In this document: one piece after another, positions 5,106 to 21,599 of the stretch
How the letters are laid out: each line of letters begins with the position of its first letter
Position numbering within the stretch: position 1 is the stretch's first letter
Source of the DNA: Phycisphaera mikurensis NBRC 102666
GTDB taxonomy: Bacteria; Planctomycetota; Phycisphaerae; Phycisphaerales; SM1A02
DNA length: 32,957 nucleotides
Reading direction: 5' to 3'
Assembly (NCBI GenBank): GCA_945890745.1
Contig: CAMDCW010000009.1
Span: forward strand, 1 to 32,957
The notes under the pieces: model-generated
What the model was told of the DNA's origin: nothing
Databases searched by the model: none
Seen by the model: only the letters and a program-made list of their open reading frames with translations
Made by a program: the position numbers and the translations under genes

Positions 5106-5960
5106 ATGACTACTAGCCATCCCGTGCGACGCATTGCGATCATCTGTGTTGTTTCAGTGGCGGCACTGGCTGCCATCGGCTGGTTTGCGCGCGACGTGAT
5201 TGCCGCATCAATTGCGCGCAGTGTTGCAACCCGACTGTTGGGAGTCAACGTCGAAATTGATTCGGTGCACCTGGATGTCTTCGGTTTAGCTGTGGAAGTA
5301 AAGGGTTTACGCGTTGCCAACCCTGCAGGCTGGGGCACCCCGCTGCTCTTGAACGCCGGAAGTATCGCCGTGCGCGTCTCTGGCGAAAGTAACAGTCAAA
5401 AACTCATCGTGGACAGTGTGGCACTGAGCAAGGTGTCGATCTGGTTCATCCGCGACGGAGACAGAAACAACGTGGCCGACGTGGTTGCCAATCTCTCCAA
5501 GGGCGATTCCAGCGAGCCGAAGGCCGCCGAAACAAAGACCACGCCCGGGATGGATCTCCTGCTCCGTGCACTGTTGTTGGAAGATGTGAATGTCTATTAC
5601 ACCGAGCGATCAAAGATCGTTGGCGACATTCCGGTAGCCGTCCATCTGAACCGGGTGGAGGTGAAGAACATTGACGGCAAGACCGCGGGCAAGGGACTCG
5701 CAGAACAACTGGTTGGGCAGGTCTTTGAAGCCGTGGTGGTGGCGGTCATGGCCGAATCCGGCAACAACCTTCCGGCAGTGCTGCGCGATCCCATCAACGG
5801 GGCTGTTCGATCTGGCGGCCGGCTCGGTGCCTCGGCCGTCAACATGATGAGCGAAGCGGCCTCGAAGGGCGGAAATGCCGTTGGGGGATTGCTGCAGGGC
5901 ATTGGCGATGCCATCACCGGCGGCAAGAAAGATGGCAGCAAAAAAGATGGCAGCAAGTAA
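5106..5960 (+). CDS. AsmA-like membrane-anchored protein
   Basis: N-terminal TM followed by ATRLLGVNVEIDSVHLDVFGLAVEVKGLRVANPAGW, characteristic of AsmA/DUF748-like N-termini; lysine-rich repeat C-terminus. Confidence 0.6.
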   Translation: MTTSHPVRRIAIICVVSVAALAAIGWFARDVIAASIARSVATRLLGVNVEIDSVHLDVFGLAVEVKGLRVANPAGWGTPLLLNAGSIAVRVSGESNSQKLIVDSVALSKVSIWFIRDGDRNNVADVVANLSKGDSSEPKAAETKTTPGMDLLLRALLLEDVNVYYTERSKIVGDIPVAVHLNRVEVKNIDGKTAGKGLAEQLVGQVFEAVVVAVMAESGNNLPAVLRDPINGAVRSGGRLGASAVNMMSEAASKGGNAVGGLLQGIGDAITGGKKDGSKKDGSK

Positions 5961-6056
5961 CCCCGCTGTCAGCCCCCCTGGCCCGCGCTTTCGCTGAAGG
6001 AATCCGGCAGAACTTGCCGATATCCGAACAGCACCCAACCTTTTTAGGAGAACGCC

Positions 6057-6812
6057 ATGCGCATGGACTCGCGCTTTGCTGTCGGAACCGTCATCGCCAC
6101 CCTTCTGTGCGGCTGCGATGCACCCACCATGCAGTCACGGATTACCGACTCGATCGGCACGCTCTCCCACGTGCAGTCATCGCCGAATCCCGTGGACTCG
6201 GAAATCTTCCGCGAGGCACGCGGTATTGCCATCGTCGACGAAACCCAAGCTGGACTAGTGATCAGCGGCGCGGGCGGTGACGGGCTCTTGTTGCGACGCA
6301 CCAGCACCGGCTGGTCCGCACCGTGCGCCATCAAGGTGCAAGGCTTCGGAGTCGGCCTCACCATTGGCGGCGAAGGACGCAGCGTTGTCATCGTGTTCTC
6401 CACCGATGCTGCTCTTGATCAATTTGTTGCCGACGGCAGCTACTTCCTCGCGCAAGCGCAGGGTGCCTTTGGCGAATCGTATAGTCGCACCAGCGATCCG
6501 GTTCAGAAACGCGATCAAGTGCGCGTCTGGGCTGTCGCCGGCGGCGTCTACGGAACGTGCGCCCTCGGCAGCATCGGCTTCAAGATCGATCACGAAGCGA
6601 ATGTTGCTGCGTACGGTGCAGGTATCTCCGAGTGGGACATTCTTGACGGCAAGGCCACCGCACCAGTCGGAATGTCCGCGCTCGCTTCACGGATCGACCG
6701 AATCACCGCACCGGTTGATGTTGGACCAAAGCAGCGGATGCGCACGGAAACAACGCCTGCGGACACAGAAGCCGCAAGCCAGTCCAAAGCGTCATCGGTG
6801 CAAGGCGACTGA
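6057..6812 (+). CDS. SYLF (YSC84-type) lipid-binding domain lipoprotein
   Basis: Start after taggag RBS. Lipobox-like LLCGC. SEIFREARGIAIVDETQAGLVISGAGGDGLLLRR...VQGFGVGLTIGGEGRSVVIVFSTDAALDQF fits SYLF. Confidence 0.82.
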   Translation: MRMDSRFAVGTVIATLLCGCDAPTMQSRITDSIGTLSHVQSSPNPVDSEIFREARGIAIVDETQAGLVISGAGGDGLLLRRTSTGWSAPCAIKVQGFGVGLTIGGEGRSVVIVFSTDAALDQFVADGSYFLAQAQGAFGESYSRTSDPVQKRDQVRVWAVAGGVYGTCALGSIGFKIDHEANVAAYGAGISEWDILDGKATAPVGMSALASRIDRITAPVDVGPKQRMRTETTPADTEAASQSKASSVQGD

Positions 6813-7799
6813 GTCTCGCTCGAGCCCGGCCCACTCCAGGAATTCACGCATCGCACGCACGGTGCCGGCGAAGTCATCACCGAATACAACATGACCGGCG
6901 CCAGGTATCAGCGCCGTGCGGCCCTGTGGCATTTCTGATGCAAACACGCTGAGCATGGATGGGTCAGTCACCGCATCGGCCGTTCCGAACACCACTAACG
7001 TCGGCGCACCAACCGCGCCCATGCGACCGCGCAGTCCATCACTCAGGAACGGCTTGATCGCCTCCACAATCAGCAACGTCTGCGGGCGACGGGCGATCGC
7101 CATATCGGCAAACCAACGACGAAACGGCGCTGGCACCGCGGGTGGTCGCACAAACACCAAGTTCATCACACGATCGAAATCCTCGCTACTGGCGATATCA
7201 AGTGGATTTGCTCCATCAGCAACGCGGCGCATGAAGTCGTTAACGACCGGCGCCTGCACCCCGGCGGGCGCAAGCATGATCAGCCCGTCCACTCGCTGCG
7301 GGAACTCGATAGCCAACTCGCAAGCGATCGCCGCACCCATGGAGGAACCCACCATGGTGGCATGCTTGATCCCCATCGCAGTCATGAACGAATCAACCGA
7401 GCGCGCGTAAAACGCACCATCATGGTGCTCCCCTTGGTGATACGCGTGACCGCCAAAGCCTGGTAGATCCGGCGCAATGGTGTGCCACCCATGCTTGGCG
7501 AACGGAGCCGAAAGTTCCATCATGGCGTCCTTACTTGCCCCGAATCCGTGCAAGAGCAGCAACACCGGACCGTCCGAAGGTCCCGCGTCAAGGTACGGCC
7601 ACTGATAGCCGTCAACAGTGATGTAACGCGACGTGATATCAAGCCGCATGTATGCGGCTTGGCGCAACGGAATCACAATGATGCGCGGATCAATCCACCA
7701 GCCGTACGCGGTGACTGCGAGCAGTGCCGCAACGCAACAACTCCCGCCCAGCACTGCACGACGGACCCACTTACGCGCCGTGCCCAACGCTGGAATCAC
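6792..7799 (-). CDS. Alpha/beta hydrolase with N-terminal membrane anchor
   Basis: LLHGFGASKD oxyanion region, VGSSMGAAIA nucleophile elbow, FGTADAVTD acid, GAGHVVF histidine; TM near N-terminus. Start overlaps TPR gene stop by 4 nt. Confidence 0.88.
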   Translation of the reverse strand: MIPALGTARKWVRRAVLGGSCCVAALLAVTAYGWWIDPRIIVIPLRQAAYMRLDITSRYITVDGYQWPYLDAGPSDGPVLLLLHGFGASKDAMMELSAPFAKHGWHTIAPDLPGFGGHAYHQGEHHDGAFYARSVDSFMTAMGIKHATMVGSSMGAAIACELAIEFPQRVDGLIMLAPAGVQAPVVNDFMRRVADGANPLDIASSEDFDRVMNLVFVRPPAVPAPFRRWFADMAIARRPQTLLIVEAIKPFLSDGLRGRMGAVGAPTLVVFGTADAVTDPSMLSVFASEMPQGRTALIPGAGHVVFGDDFAGTVRAMREFLEWAGLERDSVALHR

Positions 7800-8956
7800 G
7801 GGGCCTCGCTGCGTATCGTGCCGGCGGAGGCGCTATTCGGAACGGTCTTTCCAGGTGCGCCATGGATGGCACTCACCGTGGTCAGCAGCTTCTGCGCCAC
7901 TGCACGCTCTGGCTCACGGGCAACCGCCTGCTCAAACATTGCCAGCGACTCTTCCAAGTGGCCAGCATTGTGTGCGCTGGCACCAAGGAACATGTACCCG
8001 TCTGCCATTTCTGGATGACGCCGCACTAGGTCTTCGCCGCACTCACGGAGCCGTCCCCAATCACCAATGCGCCATGCCGCGTGGCCCAAGAGCAACATCG
8101 TCCGACCGTGTGGATCGTTGTCGTCACGGATGGAAAGCAAGATGTCCCGGGCTTCTTCCGGACGGCTCACCAAGATGAGATTGCGTGCCTTCAATCGCGC
8201 CAAGTCAGGTCTGCCGATACGGCTTGCAAGCACCGGATCTTCAAGCGCCGCAATGGATCCATTCCAGTCACCCTTGGAGTAGCGAGCAAACGCCAACTCT
8301 TCGATCAATTCTGGCGAGGCTGTTTCACGCATGGAAACACGCTCAAGCAGCTGCGCGCAGCGATCATCGTCGCCGCGCATCTTGGAAACATCCGCGCGCA
8401 ATCGATCAATCACTGGGCTGAATTCAAACTTTTTCTCAACAGCCGTCAAGCGCGCGTCAGCCTCGTCATGGCGCCCCATGAGCGTTAACATCTCAATCTC
8501 CGCGGCCACAAAGTGAATCTTGGTGGGCTCGAGTTCAGCAGCTTTGGCATACGACTCCAGAGCCTTGTCATTCTCACGCCAGCGCTGGTACACGATGCCC
8601 AAGAAGTAGTACGGCTCTGGCTTCTTTGGATCAAGATCAACAGCCGCTTGGAACGCATCACGCGATTCGTCAATGCGGGTCATCTCATGAAGGATGCGCC
8701 CACGCAACAGTTGGTACGAAGACTCCTTGGGGAAGCGAGCAATAGCGCGATCGATGTGCCCAAGCGCTGGCTCAAACTGTCCCGATTGGAACGATTGACG
8801 TGCTTGGTCGTATGCAATCTGCGCTCCGGCACGGTCATACCGGCCACGTGCTTCGTTACGAACCTGCTGCGAACGCGGCGCGCCGCATCCCGCTGCAAAC
8901 AGCGTGGCAGTGGCAAGTGATCCAGCCAATAGGCAGTGAATAAATTTGCGATTCAA
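7796..8956 (-). CDS. Tetratricopeptide repeat lipoprotein
   Basis: Signal/lipobox LATATLFAAGCGAP; several TPR units (e.g. PYYFLGIVYQRWRENDKALESYAKAAELEPTKI). Start overlaps secretin stop by 4 nt. Confidence 0.85.
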   Translation of the reverse strand: MNRKFIHCLLAGSLATATLFAAGCGAPRSQQVRNEARGRYDRAGAQIAYDQARQSFQSGQFEPALGHIDRAIARFPKESSYQLLRGRILHEMTRIDESRDAFQAAVDLDPKKPEPYYFLGIVYQRWRENDKALESYAKAAELEPTKIHFVAAEIEMLTLMGRHDEADARLTAVEKKFEFSPVIDRLRADVSKMRGDDDRCAQLLERVSMRETASPELIEELAFARYSKGDWNGSIAALEDPVLASRIGRPDLARLKARNLILVSRPEEARDILLSIRDDNDPHGRTMLLLGHAAWRIGDWGRLRECGEDLVRRHPEMADGYMFLGASAHNAGHLEESLAMFEQAVAREPERAVAQKLLTTVSAIHGAPGKTVPNSASAGTIRSEAP

Positions 8957-11244
8957 CGGTTCGGCTCCTGAGTTGGGCGCGCAGTCTTCTCACGACCAGA
9001 TTCACGGGGCAACGGCGGCGCCTCAAGATCCGGTAGTGGAAGTGGGTCAAACGGCGAGTAGTCGTCATCTACAGTTGGCGGAATGTCCTTCTTCAAGTCC
9101 TCTGGCTTAGGCGGCGTCACCCAACCCTTGGAGTACTTAAAGGTGTCAGACAGCGGCACGCCATTGAATGGCTGGCGCTGTGTTGGATCAAGCAAGTCAA
9201 TCGCATCAAGCTCCGTGCGGTACTGGTCCTTGTGATCGGTACGAATGGATTCGCGCAGCGCAATCATGGAAGGCGAATTCTTCTGCGTTCGTAGCGCCTG
9301 ATCCACATAGTAAAGCGCAGTGGATCGATCGCCTTCCTTCCACGCCTCCAGTGCTTGCAACTGGTAATTGCCCGCCAAGTGTGATTCAGAGAATGGCAGC
9401 AAGCCAGCACGTCCACCAACGCGAGCTGCTTCTGATGTTCGAAGCGCCATATCGCCGGCCTTGTAGTCCTGGGCGTCTTCCACCACGGTTGGGGTGATCA
9501 AGAAGATGATCTCTTGCTTCACCATCTGGCTTGAAGCGCCGCTGAATGCACCTGGGATCAGATCGCCCAGACCGGGAATCTGCCGGTTGGTCACCTGTGA
9601 CTGTTCCTTGAAGAGTCCGCCCAGAATGATCGTCTGTCCGCTCTTCACGCGAACATTGGTCCGAAGCTCTTGGGAAATTTCATCGGGAACGGTTGCCTTA
9701 CCGCCACCTGCGGCATCAATGTCCTTAATGCGCGCGGTACTGACCTGCGGTGCAAGTTCAAGCCGCACCATGCCATCCGGCGAAACGAATGGTCGGAAAA
9801 TCAGTTTCACACCGACATCCAAGTACTTCACTTCCTGCGTGGTACTGGTCTGCGTCTGCGTGGTTGAGAGGTAGGCGATGCGCTCACCAATGAGCACCTG
9901 GGCACGCTGCCGGTTCAGCACCGTGACCGTGGGTCGCGCGAGCACCGTGGTGTCCACCACTTGATCAAGCATCTGTAAGAAGATGGCCACATCGTTGGTC
10001 ATGATGCCCACCTTGCCGGTCGGTGGCGGCGCACCCGTGGCTGATGGATACAGTGACGCCTGCGAAGCAGTCGACGGAGTGGACGGCTTCAACAATCCGT
10101 CCTTCACATCATCAAACGCCAAGAGCGGCGAAGTGACGCTGGAGAAATCAATGTTGCCAACCACGGAGATGTCCATACCAAAGGCAGTGTCATCAGTGAG
10201 GTTCACAGTCAGAATGGTTGCCTCAACGCGCACCTGCTTCGGCGGCGTGTCGAGTTCTGCAATCAAGGTCTGGACCTGCGTAATGTTCTCCGGGAAGTCA
10301 TTGACCATGACCTTGGCAGAGAATGCAAAACTATCCGCGCCGCCATTTTCAAGCGTAGGTTGATAGCCAGGCTCCACTTTTCCAAGCGCGACAGCGGAGC
10401 CGCCTTCGGTCAAGATTGGCTTCACGAACGCGATCGCATCGTCGGCGGACAGGAATTGCAACGTAAAGACGCGGGCAACGCGATTGCGCTCGGCATCAAC
10501 TTCGCCTTGGGTCTTGACATAAATGAAGTCGCCTTCGCGGCGCCAGGCCAGACCGTTGACATTCAAGATGGCGTTGAGCGCATCTTCAAGCGGCACGTCA
10601 TACAAGTTCACGGTGACCACACCACGCACTTTGTCGCTGGCCACGATGTTCTGGCGAGCCTTGATGGAAATCAGTTCCAACAGCTTGGAAACATCAATCG
10701 CTTGCGCACTGAGGGAGAATCGACCTTCGCTGGTGACATCCACTTTCGCGTCGGGCCTGCGACTGGCGGGCACAGCAGCGCCAGCGCCCGCAGGTGCGCC
10801 TGGTGTAGACGGTGGCTCCATCGTTGGTGACGGTGGTCGTCCGCCCGGCCCAGTCAGCGGAGTAGAAACCCCGCCCTGCGCTGCGTTGGGACCAGGAACA
10901 CCCCACACGGTTGGTTTGAGTTCTGCAGTGGGGTCAGCGCCTGGATCATCGGTCGGCGCAGGAGCAGGTGCCGATTGCGCTGCGCTTGCGGGTCCAGCGG
11001 TAGCCGCGCCTTTGACGGATATTGAACTCACCGGTGCAGCGGTTGGAGATTTCGTGGGTGCAGTGCTTGGCGCAGTGCTCGGTGTAGCACTGGGCGCCGT
11101 GCTGGGCGCACTTCCAGCTGCTCCGGATGCGGAAGACTGCGCGCGTGCAACAGATGCAACCGCAAGTGTGGTGCCGATTGCAGCACACCACGCCGATCGC
11201 GCGAAGGGAGATACTGGTGAGGTGTTGTCGTTCGGTGTTGCCAT
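8953..11244 (-). CDS. Type II/IV secretion system secretin (PilQ/GspD-like)
   Basis: FSLSAQAIDVSKLLELISIKARQNIVASDKVRGVVTVNLYDVPLEDALNAIL (STN/secretin N), VEATILTVNLTD, and the secretin core ...LGGLFKEQSQVTNRQIPGLGDLIPGAFSG...QEIIFLITPTVVED. Confidence 0.94.
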   Translation of the reverse strand: MATPNDNTSPVSPFARSAWCAAIGTTLAVASVARAQSSASGAAGSAPSTAPSATPSTAPSTAPTKSPTAAPVSSISVKGAATAGPASAAQSAPAPAPTDDPGADPTAELKPTVWGVPGPNAAQGGVSTPLTGPGGRPPSPTMEPPSTPGAPAGAGAAVPASRRPDAKVDVTSEGRFSLSAQAIDVSKLLELISIKARQNIVASDKVRGVVTVNLYDVPLEDALNAILNVNGLAWRREGDFIYVKTQGEVDAERNRVARVFTLQFLSADDAIAFVKPILTEGGSAVALGKVEPGYQPTLENGGADSFAFSAKVMVNDFPENITQVQTLIAELDTPPKQVRVEATILTVNLTDDTAFGMDISVVGNIDFSSVTSPLLAFDDVKDGLLKPSTPSTASQASLYPSATGAPPPTGKVGIMTNDVAIFLQMLDQVVDTTVLARPTVTVLNRQRAQVLIGERIAYLSTTQTQTSTTQEVKYLDVGVKLIFRPFVSPDGMVRLELAPQVSTARIKDIDAAGGGKATVPDEISQELRTNVRVKSGQTIILGGLFKEQSQVTNRQIPGLGDLIPGAFSGASSQMVKQEIIFLITPTVVEDAQDYKAGDMALRTSEAARVGGRAGLLPFSESHLAGNYQLQALEAWKEGDRSTALYYVDQALRTQKNSPSMIALRESIRTDHKDQYRTELDAIDLLDPTQRQPFNGVPLSDTFKYSKGWVTPPKPEDLKKDIPPTVDDDYSPFDPLPLPDLEAPPLPRESGREKTARPTQEPNR

Positions 11245-11348: not shown

Positions 11349-11846
11349 TTAAGGTGACTGATAAGTAACGGACAAGTCCCCAGTGAAGGGGTCGAGAACT
11401 ACTTGCGCCCGCTCCGGACCATCCGAAGTGGACACAAAGATGGTCGGGACGGGGTCCATCACTCCACCAAACGGACCAAAGGTGATGTCCCGCGAGCCGC
11501 TCGAAGTGATCAACAGACCCGCGGCCACCTCTGCCCTGCCACTGCCAAACGTGGTGCGTAGTGGACCGTTTGGTCCGGTCAGTGCAGTATCTGGCGCACT
11601 CGTGTGTGCAAGGTGGTAACTGCTCCCATTGGCAGCAATACGAAGCAACACTGGATCAGCAGGCGTGGACAGCGCAACGCTGCGCGCATACCCAAGATCC
11701 GCCTCAAGGAGTCGAACGCCAGCATCCACGCGCTCAAATCGGCTGCCACCAAACATGTCAATGGCCAATCCGGCTATTACGCTCACGATGACCGCCGTGA
11801 TGAGCATCTCAATGAGCGTAAAGGCGCGAAGGCCGCGATTCATCAT
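11349..11846 (-). CDS. Prepilin-type N-terminal domain protein, GspH-like minor pseudopilin
   Basis: MMNRGLRAFTLIEMLITAVIVSVIAGLAIDMFGG class III signal; overlaps the neighbouring gene by 4 nt (11843-11846). Confidence 0.8.
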   Translation of the reverse strand: MMNRGLRAFTLIEMLITAVIVSVIAGLAIDMFGGSRFERVDAGVRLLEADLGYARSVALSTPADPVLLRIAANGSSYHLAHTSAPDTALTGPNGPLRTTFGSGRAEVAAGLLITSSGSRDITFGPFGGVMDPVPTIFVSTSDGPERAQVVLDPFTGDLSVTYQSP

Positions 11847-13516
11847 CGAGCTGCCTCCGCATTAAATCCATAGGACACGATGCGCGAAGGGAACATGTCT
11901 TCCGGATCGCCACCGCGCGAAGGCGCACGGCCCTCGGTGAATCCAGTCACCAGGTCCAACGCGTGGTCATAGAAGAAACTGGCAGTGTCATAAATCAACA
12001 AGTGGTTGGCCGCTACACGCCCGTACACCTGCGTGCGCCCAAAGAGGCGGATCGGGTTCGTTGGTAGGAACAGCGAACCAACAATGGAAGTGTCGCGGAT
12101 ATCCCAGAGGAAGAAGCTGGAGAGGAACTGCCGCATCGGATACACGCGAACCCGCCACGGCTCCATGTACTGCGGTGAAGTTGGCGCTACCGGATAGCAG
12201 TCATTGGAAGTAAACTGCGCGAACCAATTCTTCTTGTGCGGGTCGCCGTCGATGGCAACGCTATTGCAGATGTACTGCTTTCGCGGACCAACCCAGCAGT
12301 TTCGCACATCCATTGAATACCCGTTATAGATTTCAAAGGTGCTGTTTGGATTGATTTCTACGGACGAATTCTGCCAGTCCAAACCCGTCAATGCCAAGTT
12401 CGGATTGATCACGAACTTCACGTCGCCATTGATGATGATGCGCGAATCGCGCAGAATCCATGAACCGTACACCTCATAGGTGCCGGTATTCAAAGTGACT
12501 GTGGCACCACTGCGCACTTCAAAGTTCTTGGTGAACAACTGCGGAAGGAACACGGCGCGCACTCGGAATGAGTTCAGGCTGTAACTGCCGCCCGTCAAGA
12601 TGTAGTTGTTGGTGTAGTTGGTGTAGGTACCGCCAACTGACGGTGCAGCTGGGGGATTGACCATGCGAATGGAATCCAGTGGGTCCATGCGCTTCGCGGC
12701 AACAGCACTGGCACTTGCGCCTTGCACGATGAGACCAGTAGCCGAGTACGGGTAGTAAATCCATGTGGCCTTCATGGAATCTGCGTCCGACGGCGTTGAA
12801 CCCGCCACCTCTGCCTCAAAGCGACAACCGCCCTGCAGCCAGACGCCGCTTCCGAACCAGGGGAACACGTTGCTCAGGAAGGCCAGGTCGGCCTGCGTGC
12901 CAATATTCACGCGCAGTTTTTGTGCGCTCATCGGCGCATTTGGCCAACGACCAATGAAATTGTTTGAGCCATCCACAATCATGATCTTGTTGGCAAAGAT
13001 CGCGTATTCGCCCTTCACCACACTAGGAATGCTCATGTTCGCTACTGAGTTCCAAGTGGCGCCCCCGCGCGTACTGCTGACGGTGACCTCCACTTCGGTG
13101 GTGGCATCATCGGGGAAAATGTTGCCGCCATTGGCTGGATTGGCACGCTTGACAATGTCCACCAAACGAACGGTGACGGTGCCACCATCAAGCGAATAGT
13201 TGTTGAGCAGCACGCCACCAACATGATTACGACGCCAAATGGTCTCGCTGGAGCGAAGAATGCCTTTGGCAATGGACATTCCAGATGAGGCAAGCGTGCG
13301 TGCATCTGCTGCAAGCTGCGCGTTGGCTGCAATGGAAGAGGACGTTTCCCGACTCGCCACGTACGAAAGCGTCGTGGTGCCAACCACCATCATTGCGAAC
13401 AGCGCCAGCATGAGCGCCGCACCGCGTCCCATGCCCTTCCCAGTGTTGCACTGCGTCTGCACCGACCGATCGCGGCGACGGCGCGGAAGTTGAGGTTGGA
13501 AAGCGTGGTGGCTCAT
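11843..13516 (-). CDS. PilX/GspK-like minor pilin with large C-terminal beta-rich domain
   Basis: ORF 11843..13576; the likely start is ATG at 13516 (MSHHAFQPQ). GRGAALMLALFAMMVVGTTTLSYVASRETSSSIAANAQLAADARTLASSGMSIAKG resembles PilX/GspK N-termini; long beta-rich remainder. Confidence 0.68.
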   Translation of the reverse strand: MSHHAFQPQLPRRRRDRSVQTQCNTGKGMGRGAALMLALFAMMVVGTTTLSYVASRETSSSIAANAQLAADARTLASSGMSIAKGILRSSETIWRRNHVGGVLLNNYSLDGGTVTVRLVDIVKRANPANGGNIFPDDATTEVEVTVSSTRGGATWNSVANMSIPSVVKGEYAIFANKIMIVDGSNNFIGRWPNAPMSAQKLRVNIGTQADLAFLSNVFPWFGSGVWLQGGCRFEAEVAGSTPSDADSMKATWIYYPYSATGLIVQGASASAVAAKRMDPLDSIRMVNPPAAPSVGGTYTNYTNNYILTGGSYSLNSFRVRAVFLPQLFTKNFEVRSGATVTLNTGTYEVYGSWILRDSRIIINGDVKFVINPNLALTGLDWQNSSVEINPNSTFEIYNGYSMDVRNCWVGPRKQYICNSVAIDGDPHKKNWFAQFTSNDCYPVAPTSPQYMEPWRVRVYPMRQFLSSFFLWDIRDTSIVGSLFLPTNPIRLFGRTQVYGRVAANHLLIYDTASFFYDHALDLVTGFTEGRAPSRGGDPEDMFPSRIVSYGFNAEAAR

Positions 13517-13523
13517 GAGGTGC

Positions 13524-14165
13524 TTACTGACAGTCCGAATGCCGCTGCAGCGCGTCGATGATTCCACCAAGTTCAAAGTTCATTCCGCCGTGGTCGTCAT
13601 CAAGTTGAATATCCAATACCAATCGCCGGTCTGCGCATGGATTAAAGGTTGTAAAGCGAAATGTGGCCTCCAAAACACCCTCAAGGACAGTGGTGGTAAC
13701 CAGTGACCCGGACGCAGCAAGCGTTGTTCGCAGCGCTGACCAATCGGTGGCGAAGGGATAGACCGTGCGATTCAGTGTGTTACTGACCCGCTGCATGGTG
13801 ATAACGCGGTTGGTTCGGTCCACGACGTACCAACGCAGTTCGTTCCCGTGGATCGTGTCGTATTCGGTGGCGTTGGTCGGTGAACCGTCAAACGTCTCCG
13901 AAGGAAGCCATAGCGTTGCCACAGTGGTTGACTGGGAAAGAATCATTCGCGCCCGAAATAGGTGGTCCGCAATGCGCGCCTGGCCACGCGCAAGGCGCGC
14001 TACCTCTTGCGCTGCATCATCCTGACCTTGCATCCCCACCGCTACCGCCGACACCGTAGCAGCCACAGAAGCCGCAATAATCGCGGTCACTGTGATAGAC
14101 ACCAAGAGCTCCACCAATGTGAAGCCAATGCGCCGGGTACTGCATCGGGGCTGTTGCCGCATCAT
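13524..14165 (-). CDS. Prepilin-type N-terminal domain protein, GspJ/PilW-like
   Basis: RRIGFTLVELLVSITVTAIIAASVAATVSAVAVGMQGQDDAAQEVARLARGQARIADHLFRARMI. Confidence 0.8.
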   Translation of the reverse strand: MMRQQPRCSTRRIGFTLVELLVSITVTAIIAASVAATVSAVAVGMQGQDDAAQEVARLARGQARIADHLFRARMILSQSTTVATLWLPSETFDGSPTNATEYDTIHGNELRWYVVDRTNRVITMQRVSNTLNRTVYPFATDWSALRTTLAASGSLVTTTVLEGVLEATFRFTTFNPCADRRLVLDIQLDDDHGGMNFELGGIIDALQRHSDCQ

Positions 14166-14677
14166 GTTGTTGGATCCATTCCACGGAATCGCACCAGGCG
14201 TGCGAGCGTCAATCCATCGGGCCCGATGACGGCAACCTCAATTCGCTTCCCAGAAACGGTGTAGTTGTTGTACTGGGTAAGCGTGCGATTCTCAGTGATA
14301 ATCGTGGTCACCCGTGAGAGTTCTGAAAATGTGGCCGGCAAGAACTCGCGCGCCGTAGCACCGGGACGCTTCGGCGCTAAGAGCTGGCCAACTGCTTCGG
14401 TGCCAGCCAACGTGTTCATGGTTTCATAAGACTGCTCAAGTACAGAGCTCATCTGTAGTTCAGCGGCCTGCATCGCCAGCACCGAAAGTCGATTCTGCTG
14501 TTCGATCGATGAACCGACTGCCACGGACATCGACGCAGTTGCAGCCACCATCGCCACAATGATGGAGGCGATCAGCGCCTCAATGAGTGTGAACCCGCGC
14601 GGGCGCCGCATGGAGATCTGCCAGCCCGTGTGCTCCGGCTTGGGCGCTGGCGTGGGTTGTGCTGGTTGACTGGTCAT
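14162..14677 (-). CDS. Prepilin-type N-terminal domain protein, PilV/GspI-like
   Basis: RPRGFTLIEALIASIIVAMVAATASMSVAVGSSIEQQNRLSVLAMQAAELQMSSVLEQ. Start at 14677 (MTSQPAQP) or 14611 (MRRPRG); the track start at 14725 is less likely. 4-nt overlap with the GspJ-like gene. Confidence 0.8.
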   Translation of the reverse strand: MTSQPAQPTPAPKPEHTGWQISMRRPRGFTLIEALIASIIVAMVAATASMSVAVGSSIEQQNRLSVLAMQAAELQMSSVLEQSYETMNTLAGTEAVGQLLAPKRPGATAREFLPATFSELSRVTTIITENRTLTQYNNYTVSGKRIEVAVIGPDGLTLARLVRFRGMDPTT

Positions 14678-14900
14678 CAGTAGGTATCTCCGAAAAGAAC
14701 TTCCAATACAAATCCGGCTCTGCAAAGCCCAATCGGGCTTTCGGACCTTGCCATGAAGGAAATTTCATGTTTTTCGGGCGCATTGATTGCAGCACCCCCC
14801 CTTTGTTTCCGAGAGTGTTGATGTGACCGATTCAGGCAGAGTTGCTTGAATGCGGATCACTGAAAGATCGATCCAGCTAGCAAACCAAGGAGTTCTCACC

Positions 14901-15281
14901 ATGACGAACAACACCAACAACAAGAAGATGACCACGCTCCGCAAGGGCTTTACGCTTATCGAAATCCTTATCGTTGTAGTGATCATCGGCGTGCTTGCAG
15001 CGCTGGTCGTTCCATCAGTGACGGGAGCTCTTGATGATGCCAACCTGGAAGCCGCTGATGCACGCGGTGGTCAGATCACCACCATGGTGACGCGACTCAA
15101 CCAGTTCCAGCCAGCTGGAGCCAGTATCACCCTCACGGATAACACCGTCTATACGGCTACGACACTCGCACCGCTCGTAACCGCTGGATATTGCTCGGCC
15201 GAAGACCTGGCTAACCAGGTTGACGCCACCAAGGGTTGGTCGTGGAGCGCCACGACTCGCAAGTTCAGCCCTGAGCAGTAA
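14901..15281 (+). CDS. Type IV major pilin / GspG-like prepilin
   Basis: ATG at 14901 after aagga; LRKGFTLIEILIVVVIIGVLAALVVPSVTGAL prepilin motif with Glu5; small C-terminal domain. Confidence 0.88.
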   Translation: MTNNTNNKKMTTLRKGFTLIEILIVVVIIGVLAALVVPSVTGALDDANLEAADARGGQITTMVTRLNQFQPAGASITLTDNTVYTATTLAPLVTAGYCSAEDLANQVDATKGWSWSATTRKFSPEQ

Positions 15282-15312: not shown

Positions 15313-15346
15313 AAGAGGCGTCGGCAGAAGTGCCGGCGCCTCTTTT
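15313..15346 (+). terminator. Rho-independent terminator-like hairpin between pilin and pilM
   Basis: AAGAGGCGTCGGCA-GAAG-TGCCGGCGCCTCTT: 14-bp stem with one G-U pair in the plus-strand RNA and a 4-nt loop, running into TTTTCC. Confidence 0.82.
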
Positions 15347-15377
15347 CCGATACGAACCAGTAACAGGAGGCACCACG

Positions 15378-16634
15378 ATGTTTGGACTACCAATGTTTAA
15401 CAAGGGTCGCGGCGGCTGGATGCAACGGAATCGATCCGCTGCACCGATCGCAGCTGACTTCGGTCGATCCAGCATGCGCCTCTTGCAACTTGCATCCGCA
15501 GGTACTGAGTACAAGTGCACCGCGGCCGCTGAGATCGCCGGCTCAATCTTTGAGGGCAATGGGCTTCGCTTGGATTCAGCCGCGATGACGCAGCGAATCC
15601 ATGAAACCATTGTTGGACTCGGATTCTCTGGCCAGCGCGTCACCGCCACCCTCCCCGCCGAATTGTTTCAAACCGACATTGCGCGCCTTCCCGCCATGAC
15701 CGACCAGGAATTGATGGAAAGCGTTCGATTTGAAGCGATTGATCGATTTGGCATTGACGGAGACAGCTCCGTCATTGGCCATATCCGCCTTGGCGGCACC
15801 GCTGGCGGAAGCAATGAAGTTCTGATGATGGCCATTCCGCGGCACACCGTCAATGCGGCTTCGGCGGTGGTGTCTACAAATGACACCTCCGCGTTTCGCA
15901 TTGAACACGCTGCTCTTGCTGCGCTACGGACTATCACTCGCCAGCGCACCAGTGAGTGTGCTGATCCCGCTGAGTCACGCGACTTTGCGATGCTGCACCT
16001 TGAAGATCGTATTGCCACGCTGGTCTTGCTTCGCGACGGAGCACTTTCGTTTATGCGTGCAATTCGCGGTGACTGGGCTCCAGTCGGCATGACCATTCAT
16101 CGCCGTACTCATACCGGTCGCACGCTGCATGGCAATGACACTGGCACTATCAGCATGGGTTCCGACGGAGCCGATGACCAAGGAACCGCCTGGCGTTGGT
16201 GCGCGCTTGCTGAGGAAACCCTGCGCTGCCTGCGCCATGTCGAGCACAGTTCCGGCGGTTGGTATCCAAAGGAAATTGTTCTCACCGGACCTGCTGCAAC
16301 CGATCCACAAGCGGCCGCAACCATTGAGAGCGTCTGCGGAGTTCGCTCTTCGCTGGCGATGCCGATTCGCATGATTCGTGATCCGGAAGCGTGCGTTCAT
16401 GGCAACGCCTGGGTCGCTGCGATCGGTGCCGCATGCAGTGAATTGCCTGCCCTACTGCGCAACGTGCGTGCTCCCGCTGAGGTTGTCACCCAGCGCAGCA
16501 ACCGTACCGCATTCGGTGGTCGCTCGACCCCACGGACCAGCGCGAGCTCCATCATCACTCTTGAGCCCGAGCCAAAGTCGCTGACCCGACATGAATCTTC
16601 CACCCGCACTACTGCTGCAGGAGCTGCCGCGTGA
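15378..16634 (+). CDS. pilM: PilM-like type IV pilus assembly protein
   Basis: ATG at 15378 after aacaggagg. AADFGRSSMRLLQLA actin-like ATPase start, ATLPAELFQTDIARLPAMTDQELMESVRFEA; first gene of a pilMNOPBC order. Confidence 0.78.
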   Translation: MFGLPMFNKGRGGWMQRNRSAAPIAADFGRSSMRLLQLASAGTEYKCTAAAEIAGSIFEGNGLRLDSAAMTQRIHETIVGLGFSGQRVTATLPAELFQTDIARLPAMTDQELMESVRFEAIDRFGIDGDSSVIGHIRLGGTAGGSNEVLMMAIPRHTVNAASAVVSTNDTSAFRIEHAALAALRTITRQRTSECADPAESRDFAMLHLEDRIATLVLLRDGALSFMRAIRGDWAPVGMTIHRRTHTGRTLHGNDTGTISMGSDGADDQGTAWRWCALAEETLRCLRHVEHSSGGWYPKEIVLTGPAATDPQAAATIESVCGVRSSLAMPIRMIRDPEACVHGNAWVAAIGAACSELPALLRNVRAPAEVVTQRSNRTAFGGRSTPRTSASSIITLEPEPKSLTRHESSTRTTAAGAAA

Positions 16635-17344
16635 GCACCGTCTCAGCCGAGTTCATTGTTGACTTCCTGCCGCGGGATGTCCGCCGGCGTGGAGTGTTGG
16701 CAACTTCACGCCGACGCAGCATGCTGCTGCTTGGTCTACTCGGCGCTGTAGTCGTTGGCGTTGCTTGTCACTCCTGGAATCGATTCCACGAAGCTGAAGC
16801 GCGCCGCGGGGTTTCACTGGCTCTCACGACCAACGCCACCAAGGTTGACGATGTCATCGATCGCCTTGCCGGCGAACAGCGAGAATTGCATCGCTATCTC
16901 AGCGTCTACGACCGCCTTGCCCTCCCCGTGGAGCAAAGCGACATTATTGCCACCATCACCAATCTGATGCCGGATCGAACCAGCCTTTCCATGTTGCGCA
17001 TGGAAGTGAAGGAATCCGCCGCGGCTGCCACTGCGACCGCCAATGCCAAACCAGCGGTAGCACCGGGCGGCGTTGGCAATGTTCGTACTCCTGCTCCGGC
17101 CCGTTGGATGGAAATCACCATCCGTGGATACGCACAGGACAACGCCGATCTCTACGAATTTGAGCGCAAGCTTGCAAACACCAAGCCATTCGCTTCAGTG
17201 ACCGTTTCTGAAAACAAGCCGACCGACATTGCTCGCGGTCGCATCCAGGAGTTTGCCGTGAATTGCCGCATTGACCTTGATGTTCAGTATGTGCGCCCCG
17301 GCGGAAGCCCAGTCGCGTCTGTCGCCAAAGGAGGCTCAAAATGA
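16631..17344 (+). CDS. pilN: PilN-like assembly protein
   Basis: GTG start overlapping the PilM stop (GTGA). VEFIVDFLP-like opening (AEFIVDFLPRDVRRRG), single TM, then coiled coil and PilN-like fold; syntenic position. Confidence 0.72.
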   Translation: MSTVSAEFIVDFLPRDVRRRGVLATSRRRSMLLLGLLGAVVVGVACHSWNRFHEAEARRGVSLALTTNATKVDDVIDRLAGEQRELHRYLSVYDRLALPVEQSDIIATITNLMPDRTSLSMLRMEVKESAAAATATANAKPAVAPGGVGNVRTPAPARWMEITIRGYAQDNADLYEFERKLANTKPFASVTVSENKPTDIARGRIQEFAVNCRIDLDVQYVRPGGSPVASVAKGGSK

Positions 17345-17982
17345 GCACCCTGCGATTTGCCAACCTGCATATCCGTGAACGCTTCGACCGGGAAACAGTG
17401 GTTTGGGCCATTGCGCCGTCGATCGTGGCAATCATGATTACTGCGCTCTTTGTGGTGCCGAATTACTCGCGCGCACTTCGCATGCAAGACGAAGCACAAC
17501 GCCTGGAGGCGGTGAGCAGCGAGAACATCAATCAGAAGAATAATCTGCAACTCTTAGAGCGCAATGTTGCTGGCCTCCGTGATGAGTACAACCGCCGCTG
17601 CCGGCCGCTTGCCGAAGGCACGGATCGAGACCACCTACTTTCCACCATTACTCGTCCGACCGATGGGACCGTGGTGCGCGAACAGTCCATTCGAACCGGT
17701 GCGCTGGTTCAGGTAGACGGAGTTGCTATTGGAACCCCCGTGCTTCGCCGCGACGTCACGGTGGACATGTCGGCCTCATTCGAATCAATCTTCGGCGTGC
17801 TGGATGCAGCAGAGGGCGTGAACCAACTGGTCACCCCGCGTTCGGTGGAAATCGTGGTCATGAGTACCGCGCTTGAGCAAGCGGCCTCCGGCAATGCTGC
17901 TATTCGCGCCACCATCGTCTTTGAAGAGTGGTTTGAACAGCCAGCAACTACCAACGCACCCGCGAAGGAGGCTCGCCGATGA
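17341..17982 (+). CDS. pilO: PilO-like assembly protein
   Basis: ATGA overlap with PilN. Single TM (VVWAIAPSIVAIMITALFVV), coiled coil, C-terminal ferredoxin-like region; syntenic position. Confidence 0.65.
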   Translation: MSTLRFANLHIRERFDRETVVWAIAPSIVAIMITALFVVPNYSRALRMQDEAQRLEAVSSENINQKNNLQLLERNVAGLRDEYNRRCRPLAEGTDRDHLLSTITRPTDGTVVREQSIRTGALVQVDGVAIGTPVLRRDVTVDMSASFESIFGVLDAAEGVNQLVTPRSVEIVVMSTALEQAASGNAAIRATIVFEEWFEQPATTNAPAKEARR

Positions 17983-18542
17983 GTGCTCCACTCGCAGTAC
18001 GTTGGAATGAACTGTGCAGCCGCTTGGGCGTGCAGCCGAAGCAGTTTGGGTTCTTGCTTGCTGCTACTGCACTCACTGTGGCAGCACTTGGCGCGAAGAC
18101 CGTATTCAAGCCAGCGCGAGCCACTGCGGCAGCGGCGGTGCGCGTGGATTCCAGCGCTAGCAGCGCTGTGGTGCCAGTCCTCGCCGCACGCCAACGCGTG
18201 GAGCTTGTGCTGGAGTCACGCCCCATCCGCGACCCGTTTCGTCCATTCTTTATCAACCCGGATGCGGTCCCAGGCGCAGCACCAAGCGCCGGCGTAGCAA
18301 CCGGGGCGCCGGCCCCAGCCGGTCTACACCTGCGGGCAATAATCGCGGGTGAATTTGCAGTAATCGGGGAGGAAACCGTTGCTGTTGGCGATGAAGTATC
18401 CGACAGTGAAGGGCATCGCTTCGTCGTCGAAGAGATCCAGGAGCGCCGCGTGGTTCTCCGTGAGGGCGGGCGACGGGCAGAACTTGGCTACGCGTCCACT
18501 GGGCGCGCTTCGGATAAGTCCACGAAGGGAACACGGAAGTGA
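17979..18542 (+). CDS. PilP/GspC-like protein
   Basis: ATGA overlap with PilO. TM, linker, RDPFRPFFIN and LRAIIAGEFAVIGEETVAVGDEVSDSEGHRFVVEEIQERRVVLREGGRRAEL, a PilP/GspC homology-region pattern. Confidence 0.72.
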   Translation: MSAPLAVRWNELCSRLGVQPKQFGFLLAATALTVAALGAKTVFKPARATAAAAVRVDSSASSAVVPVLAARQRVELVLESRPIRDPFRPFFINPDAVPGAAPSAGVATGAPAPAGLHLRAIIAGEFAVIGEETVAVGDEVSDSEGHRFVVEEIQERRVVLREGGRRAELGYASTGRASDKSTKGTRK

Positions 18543-20329
18543 ATCACGGAGGCGATCATGGCGGACACGGAATGCAGCGCGACTCAGCGCTCAGCCGTCC
18601 GCACAACATCGAACTTTCTACGCTTCCCCCGCTCGGGCAGATTTTAGTTGAGGACGGAACGCTCAGCACCGATCAACTTCGCCAAGCCCTCGCGGCGCAG
18701 GTCAAAGGTGGCCAACGTTTGCTCTTGGGCGAAGTCTTGATTCAAATGGGCTTGGTCGACAAGACCGTTCTGTTGCAGGCCGTTGCCAAGAATCGCGGCG
18801 TTGAGTTTGTCATGGAACCAGCCGCACTGTTTGAAGAAGGCGCCATGGCGCTCATTCCAGAAAACATGCGCAAGGAACACCGCGTCTGCGCGCTATTCCT
18901 CGCTGGTACTGAACTGGTAGTTGCCACTGCTGATCCGCAGAACTACTTCGTTGAAGAACTCATTGCCCGCGAGACTGGATTCAAAGTCCGGTTTGTCGCG
19001 TCTCCCGATGAGAGCATTGATGCGCTGCTCAGTGATCCCACCCGCGCTACTGAGAATGTCAACAAGCAAGCCGAGGAATTGGTCGCTGATCTGTTCGATG
19101 GCACCGACGAGGCTGACTATCAGCTGCAGGAGAAGCGCGTCGAGGAGATGATGGGCTTCGACGCCACTGATGATGTTGGCCCAGTGGTGAAGCTTGTGAA
19201 TTTCATGATCTGCAGTGCCGCCGCTGAAGGCGCCAGCGATATTCACATTGAGCCTGACGAAGGCCACCTGCGGGTTCGCTACCGCATCGACGGCGTTCTG
19301 TTTCACAAGTTGAGCCCGCCGTATCGCATGCATGCTGCCATTTCGAGCCGCGTGAAGATCATGGCGCACATGGATATTTCAGAGCGCCGCGTGCCCCAAG
19401 ACGGCGAGATTTCTGTGCGCGTCAAGGGACGTGCCATTGACCTACGCGTCAGCACCCTGCCTGGAAAGTTCGGCGAGAAGATCGTGATGCGAATCATTGA
19501 TGTTTCGACTGCCAAGCTTGGATTGGAGAAGTTGGGCTTCCGGCCAAAGATGCTGGAGAGTTTCCAGAACGTGATTGATCAGCCTTACGGAATCGTCTTG
19601 GTGACTGGACCGACTGGATCGGGTAAGTCCACCACGCTGTATTCGGTGCTGGGAACCTTTGATACCGTCGCCAACAACGTTTCCACGGTTGAAGATCCAG
19701 TGGAAGCGAACTTGCAGGGAGTTCATCAGGCGCAAATCAATCCGAAGGCGGGTTTCACATTCTCCGGAGCGCTTCGCGCACTGCTCCGACAAGACCCTGA
19801 CATCATCATGGTCGGTGAAATTCGTGACGGCGAAACTGGCCAGATTGCGGTCCAGGCTGCGCTCACCGGTCACTTGGTACTCAGCACCCTGCACACCAAT
19901 GATGCGCCCAGTTCCATCACCCGACTCCAGAACCTGGGCGTTGAGCCGTTCCTAGTTGCAGCCAGTTTGAAGGGCGTTCTTGCGCAGCGTCTGGTGCGCC
20001 GCATCTGCAGCCAGTGCAAACAAGAATTTTCACCGGACGCGCAGCAGCTCAAGTCCCTTGGCGAATACGCACCGATGTGCAGCCGCCTCTGGAAAGGCAC
20101 CGGATGCCGCAAGTGCCATGACACTGGACTTTCCGGTCGATTGGGCGTGTACGAATTGATGGTGCCAGACGAAGCGCTCATTGACGCTGTCTGCGCCAAC
20201 TCGGAACCAGCCAAGATCCGCGAGGTTCTAAAGGCGAGCGGCTTTAACACCCTGTGGGACGACGGCGTCCAGAAGGTGCTTGAAGGAATGACCACAATTG
20301 AGGAGGTCTATGGTGCCTGCCGCCGCTGA
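18539..20329 (+). CDS. pilB: GspE/PilB family assembly ATPase
   Basis: GTG start overlapping the PilP stop. Walker A GPTGSGKSTTLYS, Asp box, Walker B, LSTLHTNDAPSSITRL, zinc motif CSQC...CRKC. Confidence 0.95.
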   Translation: MNHGGDHGGHGMQRDSALSRPHNIELSTLPPLGQILVEDGTLSTDQLRQALAAQVKGGQRLLLGEVLIQMGLVDKTVLLQAVAKNRGVEFVMEPAALFEEGAMALIPENMRKEHRVCALFLAGTELVVATADPQNYFVEELIARETGFKVRFVASPDESIDALLSDPTRATENVNKQAEELVADLFDGTDEADYQLQEKRVEEMMGFDATDDVGPVVKLVNFMICSAAAEGASDIHIEPDEGHLRVRYRIDGVLFHKLSPPYRMHAAISSRVKIMAHMDISERRVPQDGEISVRVKGRAIDLRVSTLPGKFGEKIVMRIIDVSTAKLGLEKLGFRPKMLESFQNVIDQPYGIVLVTGPTGSGKSTTLYSVLGTFDTVANNVSTVEDPVEANLQGVHQAQINPKAGFTFSGALRALLRQDPDIIMVGEIRDGETGQIAVQAALTGHLVLSTLHTNDAPSSITRLQNLGVEPFLVAASLKGVLAQRLVRRICSQCKQEFSPDAQQLKSLGEYAPMCSRLWKGTGCRKCHDTGLSGRLGVYELMVPDEALIDAVCANSEPAKIREVLKASGFNTLWDDGVQKVLEGMTTIEEVYGACRR

Positions 20330-21599
20330 TAAATCTGCTGCAATTGCTGCTTCTACGCGGAAGTTCACCTACCGCGCCCGCCGCTCGGAGGGTGGCGCGT
20401 TGGTCAAAGGTGTGGTGGAAGCACATGACCATGCAGCAGCAGTGCGCGAGCTTCGTCAGCAGGGTCTGGCCATTCTGTCAGTTGAACTCGGAGACATGGC
20501 TGCCGCAGTTGGTCAGGAATCTGACCCGGCTCGGCTGCGACGTCGACTCTCACGAGCCATGTCCAAGGACGACGTCGTTTCGTTCTGCCAACAGCTTGCT
20601 GTGATGCTTCGTACGGGCGTTCCACTTGCAGAATCACTTGACACCTATGCAGAGCAGGCTTCCAAGAAGGATGTTGCTGAGTTTGTGCGACTGATTCGAA
20701 CGGATGTCTGCGAGGGCGAAGACTTTAGTGCTGTGCTCGGAAAGTACCCACGGGTATTTCCGGCGCTGTTAGTTTCGTTGATGCGCGCTGCTGAAGCATC
20801 GGGAAAGTTGGACGAAATGTTGGCGCGCGTTTCCAAGGACCTCTCCAAGGCACGTCGAACCAGTAAGCAGATCAAGGGCGCGATGATGTACCCGGCCATC
20901 ATGCTCATTGTGGCAGTGCTGGCAGTGGTCATCATCATGGTCTTCGTTCTTCCCAAGTTCGGCCCGCTCTTTAAGGCGCAAGGCGACCGTCTGCCCGCGC
21001 CAACCAAGGCGTTGGTGTGGCTCAGCAGTTTCTTGCGCACCGGATGGATGATCTATGGACCAGCGCTCGCTGCCATTGTTGGCGGCACCTGGTGGTACGC
21101 GCGCACTGAAGCGGGACGGATCACTCTTGATACGCTCAAAATGCGCATGCCAGTGTTGGGACACATGTTCCGATGCCTGTACCTCGTGCGTTTCTCAAGC
21201 ACCATGGCCACCCTGCTCTCGGCTGGCGTTTCACTGATCGATGTAGTGCGGATCTGCCGAGAAGTAACTGGAAATGTGCACTACACCAAGTTGTGGATTC
21301 TGCTGGAGGATCGCATCAGTAAGGGGCAAGAGATTGCGCCCACCTTCCGCGAATTCGATTTCGTCCCGCGCAACGTCGTGGCAATGATTGCCAGCGGAGA
21401 GAAATCTGGTCGACTCTCTGAGGTGCTGGAACACGCTGCAACTGCTGCAGAAGACGATCTCGATATCGCGGTCAAATCAACCACCAGCATGGTGGAGCCG
21501 ATCATGATCGTCGGCATGGGTCTCGTGGTTGGCGGTATTGCTTCCGCGATGCTGCTACCGATCTTCAATATGTCGAAGAACATGCGCCCTGGCCACTGA
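20310..21599 (+). CDS. pilC: GspF/PilC family inner-membrane platform protein
   Basis: FCQQLAVMLRTGVPLAESLDTYAEQ...KQIKGAMMYPAIMLIVAVLAVVIIMVFVLPKF...ATLLSAGVSLIDVV, GspF repeats. Start at 20310 (ATG) or 20313 (GTG) downstream of gaggagg; overlaps pilB. Confidence 0.94.
   Translation: MVPAAADKSAAIAASTRKFTYRARRSEGGALVKGVVEAHDHAAAVRELRQQGLAILSVELGDMAAAVGQESDPARLRRRLSRAMSKDDVVSFCQQLAVMLRTGVPLAESLDTYAEQASKKDVAEFVRLIRTDVCEGEDFSAVLGKYPRVFPALLVSLMRAAEASGKLDEMLARVSKDLSKARRTSKQIKGAMMYPAIMLIVAVLAVVIIMVFVLPKFGPLFKAQGDRLPAPTKALVWLSSFLRTGWMIYGPALAAIVGGTWWYARTEAGRITLDTLKMRMPVLGHMFRCLYLVRFSSTMATLLSAGVSLIDVVRICREVTGNVHYTKLWILLEDRISKGQEIAPTFREFDFVPRNVVAMIASGEKSGRLSEVLEHAATAAEDDLDIAVKSTTSMVEPIMIVGMGLVVGGIASAMLLPIFNMSKNMRPGH

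Follow-up and report, generated by a model that had tools for sequence, protein, structure and literature searches.

GspK of the type II secretion system (T2SS) and PilX of type IVa pili (T4aP) have been placed as tip pilins, the mark of which is a missing Glu5, and in Myxococcus PilX has been modelled as the carrier of PilY1 (PMC7541494; PMC12040237). ComZ of Thermus thermophilus (6qvi) binds DNA and is needed for transformation; it is a GspK-like pilin whose final strand is preceded by an inserted beta-solenoid. The nearest published relatives of this solenoid are the DUF3494 ice-binding solenoids, and the ComZ lysines K98 and K233 have been tied to DNA binding (PMC6561018). Moreover, the modular pilins of Streptococcus sanguinis, with their vWA or lectin-type modules, have been proposed or demonstrated to act as adhesins (PMC8179133). 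Modular tip pilins are already known, and the solenoid pilin described here is ordinary in that respect. It is notable because it places the ComZ architecture in a conserved slot across the Phycisphaerae, where PilY1 is not recognisable. ComZ had been described as unusual and, to judge from the predicted structures, a solenoid spliced into an ordinary pilin seems to be otherwise known only from ComZ of Thermus; the same build would now occupy a conserved phycisphaeral slot. No papers on a pilin-plus-solenoid tip protein of the Phycisphaerae were found in the literature searched, which covered few subscription journals.

The DNA analysed here (the window) is a stretch of 32,957 nucleotides from a freshwater planctomycete. 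On its minus strand, an ORF running from an ATG at 13516 to a stop at 11843 encodes a product of 557 aa. The frame reaches farther 5', to a TTG at 13576; ATG13516 was taken as the start because it fits the spacing to the upstream minor pilin (7 bases lie between it and the preceding gene's end) and because two homologues are exactly 557 aa long. At its other end the gene overlaps the downstream one by 4 bases. The gene is real and part of a four-gene minor-pilin operon, and a chance ORF is excluded by homologues in 122 of the 151 genomes of the same family, together with the almost constant order of the genes across the loci examined. The three neighbours, all on the minus strand and all with prepilin motifs, bear out the location in a minor-pilin cluster that an earlier note on this DNA had claimed. 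They encode a GspI/PilV-like minor pilin (14162-14725), a GspJ/PilW-like one (13524-14165) and, downstream, a GspH/FimU/FimT-like one (11349-11846) without the FimT C-terminal DNA motif. Note that the J/W and I/V names come from gene order, the prepilin motif and weak HMM matches that do not reach the curated cut-offs.

We classify the 557-aa protein as a K-class (GspK/PilX-position), ComZ-like modular minor pilin, and consider it probable that it is the tip-capping, ligand-binding minor pilin of a type IV pilus machine. This reading draws on computed features, namely the gene and its conservation, the operon slot, the missing Glu5, the predicted domain order, the lack of a recognisable PilY1 and the existence of lectin-bearing versions; cleavage, tip position, display and the class of ligand are what we infer.

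The protein opens with a basic leader (residues 1-32; 13421-13516, minus strand, as for all its parts) that prepilin peptidase is predicted to cut after Gly32, an invariant residue. The sequence here reads RG^AALMLALFAMMVV, so that position 5 after the cleavage site is not Glu, and the alignment showed Glu5 in 0 of the 40 family members. In the AlphaFold model, an N-terminal alpha-helix (residues 31-89; 13250-13426) is followed by pilin beta-strands (residues 102-162; 13031-13213). The hydrophobic N-terminus described earlier is real, and the GspK profile matches residues 31-120 weakly (19.9 bits, E 4e-4, below the cut-off of 130 bits); PilX_N (PF14341) gave no match at E<=1 in the Pfam profile search. 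The protein thus shares with GspK and PilX the operon position, the missing Glu5 and the pilin N-domain. Unlike them, it lacks a PilX_N match and has, in the model, a beta insert in place of the GspK alpha-domain.

This insert is predicted to be a beta-solenoid, DUF7305-type at its C-terminal end, occupying residues 173-516 (11969-13000). The model of the window protein (40 sequences, mean pLDDT 78.9, pTM 0.65) shows it as a succession of short strands, and for most blocks between about residues 301 and 520 pLDDT exceeds 90; DSSP assigned strands across its whole length, in agreement with the beta-strand-rich C-terminal part proposed from the sequence. A final strand lies past the solenoid at residues 544-551 (11864-11887), with low confidence in this protein. 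The model of L054, a homologue with 24% identity (34 sequences, pLDDT 86.5, pTM 0.80), repeats the order of pilin strands, solenoid and last strand, the latter at residues 503-513 with a block pLDDT of about 86. In both models the solenoid falls between the penultimate and the last pilin strand, a placement given by strand order, the sheet partner of the last strand not being seen. The two models are not fully independent, since they come from related alignments and one common method.

Foldseek searches of the PDB with both models returned chains A-C of 6qvi, ComZ, as the only matches at E<=0.001 (best E 7.8e-7 for the window protein and 6.0e-7 for L054; prob 1.00), and the next matches were DUF3494 ice-binding solenoids. 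The predicted C-terminal fold is a beta-helix or solenoid, and neither a GspK alpha-domain nor disordered. Global TM-scores to ComZ were only about 0.2, so the domain orientation either differs or is wrongly modelled. In the models, the agreement with ComZ in strand order, nearest fold and secondary matches is strong; since the superposition does not agree, we claim the same topology as ComZ and not the same shape. When the protein and two profiles were searched against PDB sequences, no pilin was matched and 6qvi was absent at E<=10; the short matches returned, which resemble chance hits or generic beta repeats, were rejected as homologues. On these predicted structures, ComZ is the closest precedent for the 557-aa pilin. 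Both proteins are of similar size, lack Glu5, combine a pilin domain with a large, ice-binding-protein-like beta-solenoid before the last strand, and are encoded beside a GspI-like minor pilin. They differ in that sequence homology is undetectable, the domains are not superposable, the window protein has an extra Cys-containing loop, and DNA binding is here putative.

The solenoid also has a family-level signature. On the window protein, PF23981 (DUF7305) scored 14.9 bits in hmmscan (E 0.026), below the 27-bit gathering cut-off, and a genome-wide search of its own genome gave nothing at E<=0.1. Across the family, the profile matches 35 of 40 members (E<=0.1, best 1.3e-19), many of them above the cut-off, so the DUF7305 link that had been suggested is real at that level. 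The matches lie inside the solenoid, mostly in its second half, and the Pfam model spans only part of it. At E<=1e-5, DUF7305 was present in 21 of 119 genomes sampled across the phylum. A weak match in Thermus composti does not establish that the match is ComZ. Our literature search found no papers on DUF7305.

The likeness to ComZ raises the possibility that the 557-aa pilin is a DNA receptor, binding extracellular DNA at the tip before PilT retracts the pilus and ComEC imports the strand. ComZ, the closest solved structure, does bind DNA; ComEC and PilT are encoded in the host genome, ComEC is found in 127 of the 151 relatives, and the mature window protein is mildly basic (computed pI 8.5). 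However, most homologues are acidic, with net charges down to -81, and the ComZ lysines cannot be mapped onto the window protein. FimT binds DNA through a C-terminal G-[RK]-x-[RK] motif in those diderm competence pili that have been studied (PMC12040237), and the FimT-like partner lacked this motif at its C-terminus in 24 of 24 sequences. ComEC is also common among bacteria without a solenoid pilin. Its co-occurrence was discarded as a test of DNA uptake because, within the family, ComEC and the solenoid pilin are both near-ubiquitous. We therefore regard a role in DNA uptake as doubtful.

The genes around the minor pilins encode most of a filament machine. On the plus strand lie a GspG-like major pilin candidate, identified by HMM (14850-15281), PilM, PilN, a PilO-like and a GspC/PilP-like protein (15330-18542; the last two are weak HMM matches), and a PilB/GspE-type ATPase with PilC/GspF (18539-21599); on the minus strand, a secretin with N0 and a single Secretin_N domain has PilQ as its best match (8953-11244). 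The ATPase (18539-20329) carries an MshE-type c-di-GMP motif (46.3 against an NCBIfam cut-off of 38 bits), so pilus extension may be under c-di-GMP control. PilT lies elsewhere, contig C62 carrying it together with additional PilB and PilC genes, and was not counted as a member of this cluster. Genome-wide there are several filament ATPases and four secretins, and the type IVa pilus set comprises PilM, PilN, PilO (weak), PilB, PilC, a PilQ-like secretin and PilT. A second filament locus of the same genome (L096:5899-14206) encodes PilB-like, PilT, PilB-like and PilC proteins, then two large proteins with the prepilin-like starts RRGFTVVE and ERAFTLIE and no NCBIfam match at E<=1e-6.

These parts bear on whether the 557-aa protein could instead cap a type II secretion pseudopilus in the manner of GspK, its solenoid contacting secreted cargo. 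The weak GspK match would fit such a cap, as would a major pilin that scores best with GspG, a PilC that scores best with GspF, a weak GspC-like match and the absence of PilT beside the minor pilins. Against this, PilM and PilN are separate rather than a fused GspL, the secretin has one Secretin_N domain and matches PilQ best, the ATPase is slightly better as PilB and bears the MshE-type motif, the GspK alpha-domain is missing, and the nearest fold is ComZ. Overall, PilM/N/O, the PilB-type ATPase, the PilQ-like secretin and PilT point to a type IV pilus rather than a type II pseudopilus, though not with certainty, and we consider the secretion cap unlikely.

The place that we assign to the tip-capping pilin is held by PilY1 in other type IVa pili. 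The earlier note had reported no PilY1 in the window, and our searches extend this to the host genome, where nothing scored above the cut-off and the best E was 0.07. PilY1 was likewise found in 0 of 98 good genomes of the family, with one fragment among all 151; no control genome matched at E<=1e-5.

Homologues occur in named Phycisphaerales and Planctomycetes MAGs, including some from Lake Baikal and Lake Pavin, and a profile search of 248 genomes from the class gave matches to the pilin family, many of them partial, in 150. The order PilV/I, PilW/J, solenoid pilin, GspH/FimU recurs in most loci and in sister families; in one exception (L045) the GspH gene precedes the solenoid pilin, and in a few loci one neighbour was undetected. 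In closer genera, represented by nine of the loci checked, the minor pilins have the PilM-N-O-PilB-PilC genes and the secretin next to them; in the family's more distant genera, the loci checked showed none of these genes around the four minor pilins. In two sister families belonging to the same taxonomic order (f3 and f4), the slot directly after the PilV/I and PilW/J genes encodes pilins of 1298-1493 aa, whose N-terminus matches the 557-aa pilin family and which contain 2-3 matched stretches of the Laminin_G_3 concanavalin-A-like lectin domain (E down to 4e-60). They include single genes (L110:2650-6765, minus strand; L111:1804-5700, plus strand) and a tandem pair (L112:1687-5613 and 5595-10076, plus strand), and one giant also has DUF7305.

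Such lectin domains in same-slot relatives imply that the 557-aa pilin probably holds what the pilus grips. In S. sanguinis, PilB and PilC likewise combine a pilin with an adhesive module, for which a tip location has been proposed (PMC8179133), and PilC shares concanavalin-A-like lectin domains with the giant pilins; the PilB module follows the pilin, whereas the solenoid of the 557-aa pilin precedes the last strand. By analogy, the lectin and adhesin modules favour ligand binding without naming the ligand. The pattern of conservation is relevant to a third reading, a purely structural cap, in which the solenoid has no ligand and serves to set the size of the tip or to stabilise it. In close relatives, the solenoid end (459-520) and tail (521-557) are conserved at least as well as the pilin domain. 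Such a cap would suit a conserved gene whose best-kept stretches include these parts rather than an obvious variable ligand face. In distant relatives, however, residues 173-412 have changed more rapidly than the pilin domain, and this divergence of the first part between genera, the sheer size of the solenoid and the same-slot lectin additions suggest a ligand role; a cap that binds nothing seems to us quite improbable. An extra loop off the solenoid (residues 413-458; 12143-12280) with a Cys/GDPHxxxW motif is shared by close relatives, distant homologues mostly having gaps there, and is a candidate ligand or metal site.

For the ligand-binding tip pilin, we propose that cleavage behind Gly32 would let the helix enter the pilus core. 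Without Glu5, the solenoid pilin would cap the filament, above the PilV/I, PilW/J and FimU/H-like pilins. Its solenoid, spliced in ahead of the final pilin strand as it is in ComZ, would be exposed at the extreme tip and serve there to bind a ligand, with surfaces, particles or glycans as the likeliest targets. The solenoid pilin would thereby take the place held by PilY1 in other type IVa pili. The tip role already suggested for this protein agrees with the absent Glu5, the operon slot and the ComZ-like architecture. Of the two functions offered, 'tip adhesin or cargo', the adhesin gains indirect support from the lectin modules found elsewhere in the slot and from the lack of PilY1; cargo received no specific support. 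More tentatively, and with somewhat less than even confidence, a ComZ-architecture tip pilin may have replaced PilY1 across the Phycisphaerae, the slot having diversified into bare solenoids, loops and lectin giants as the main surface receptor. If true, this would provide a testable tip adhesin for the Phycisphaerae and a natural series of modules on how tip pilins choose ligands.

Four genomes (G255, G315, G360 and G045; loci L070, L071, L075 and L076) have 2-4 copies of the pilin, several lying near one another on a single contig, which suggests alternative tips. Finally, a contig from a record titled as a Chitinophaga pinensis MAG (L032) encodes a protein 97% identical to the phycisphaeral pilin of the window, and the record is probably a mislabelled bin.
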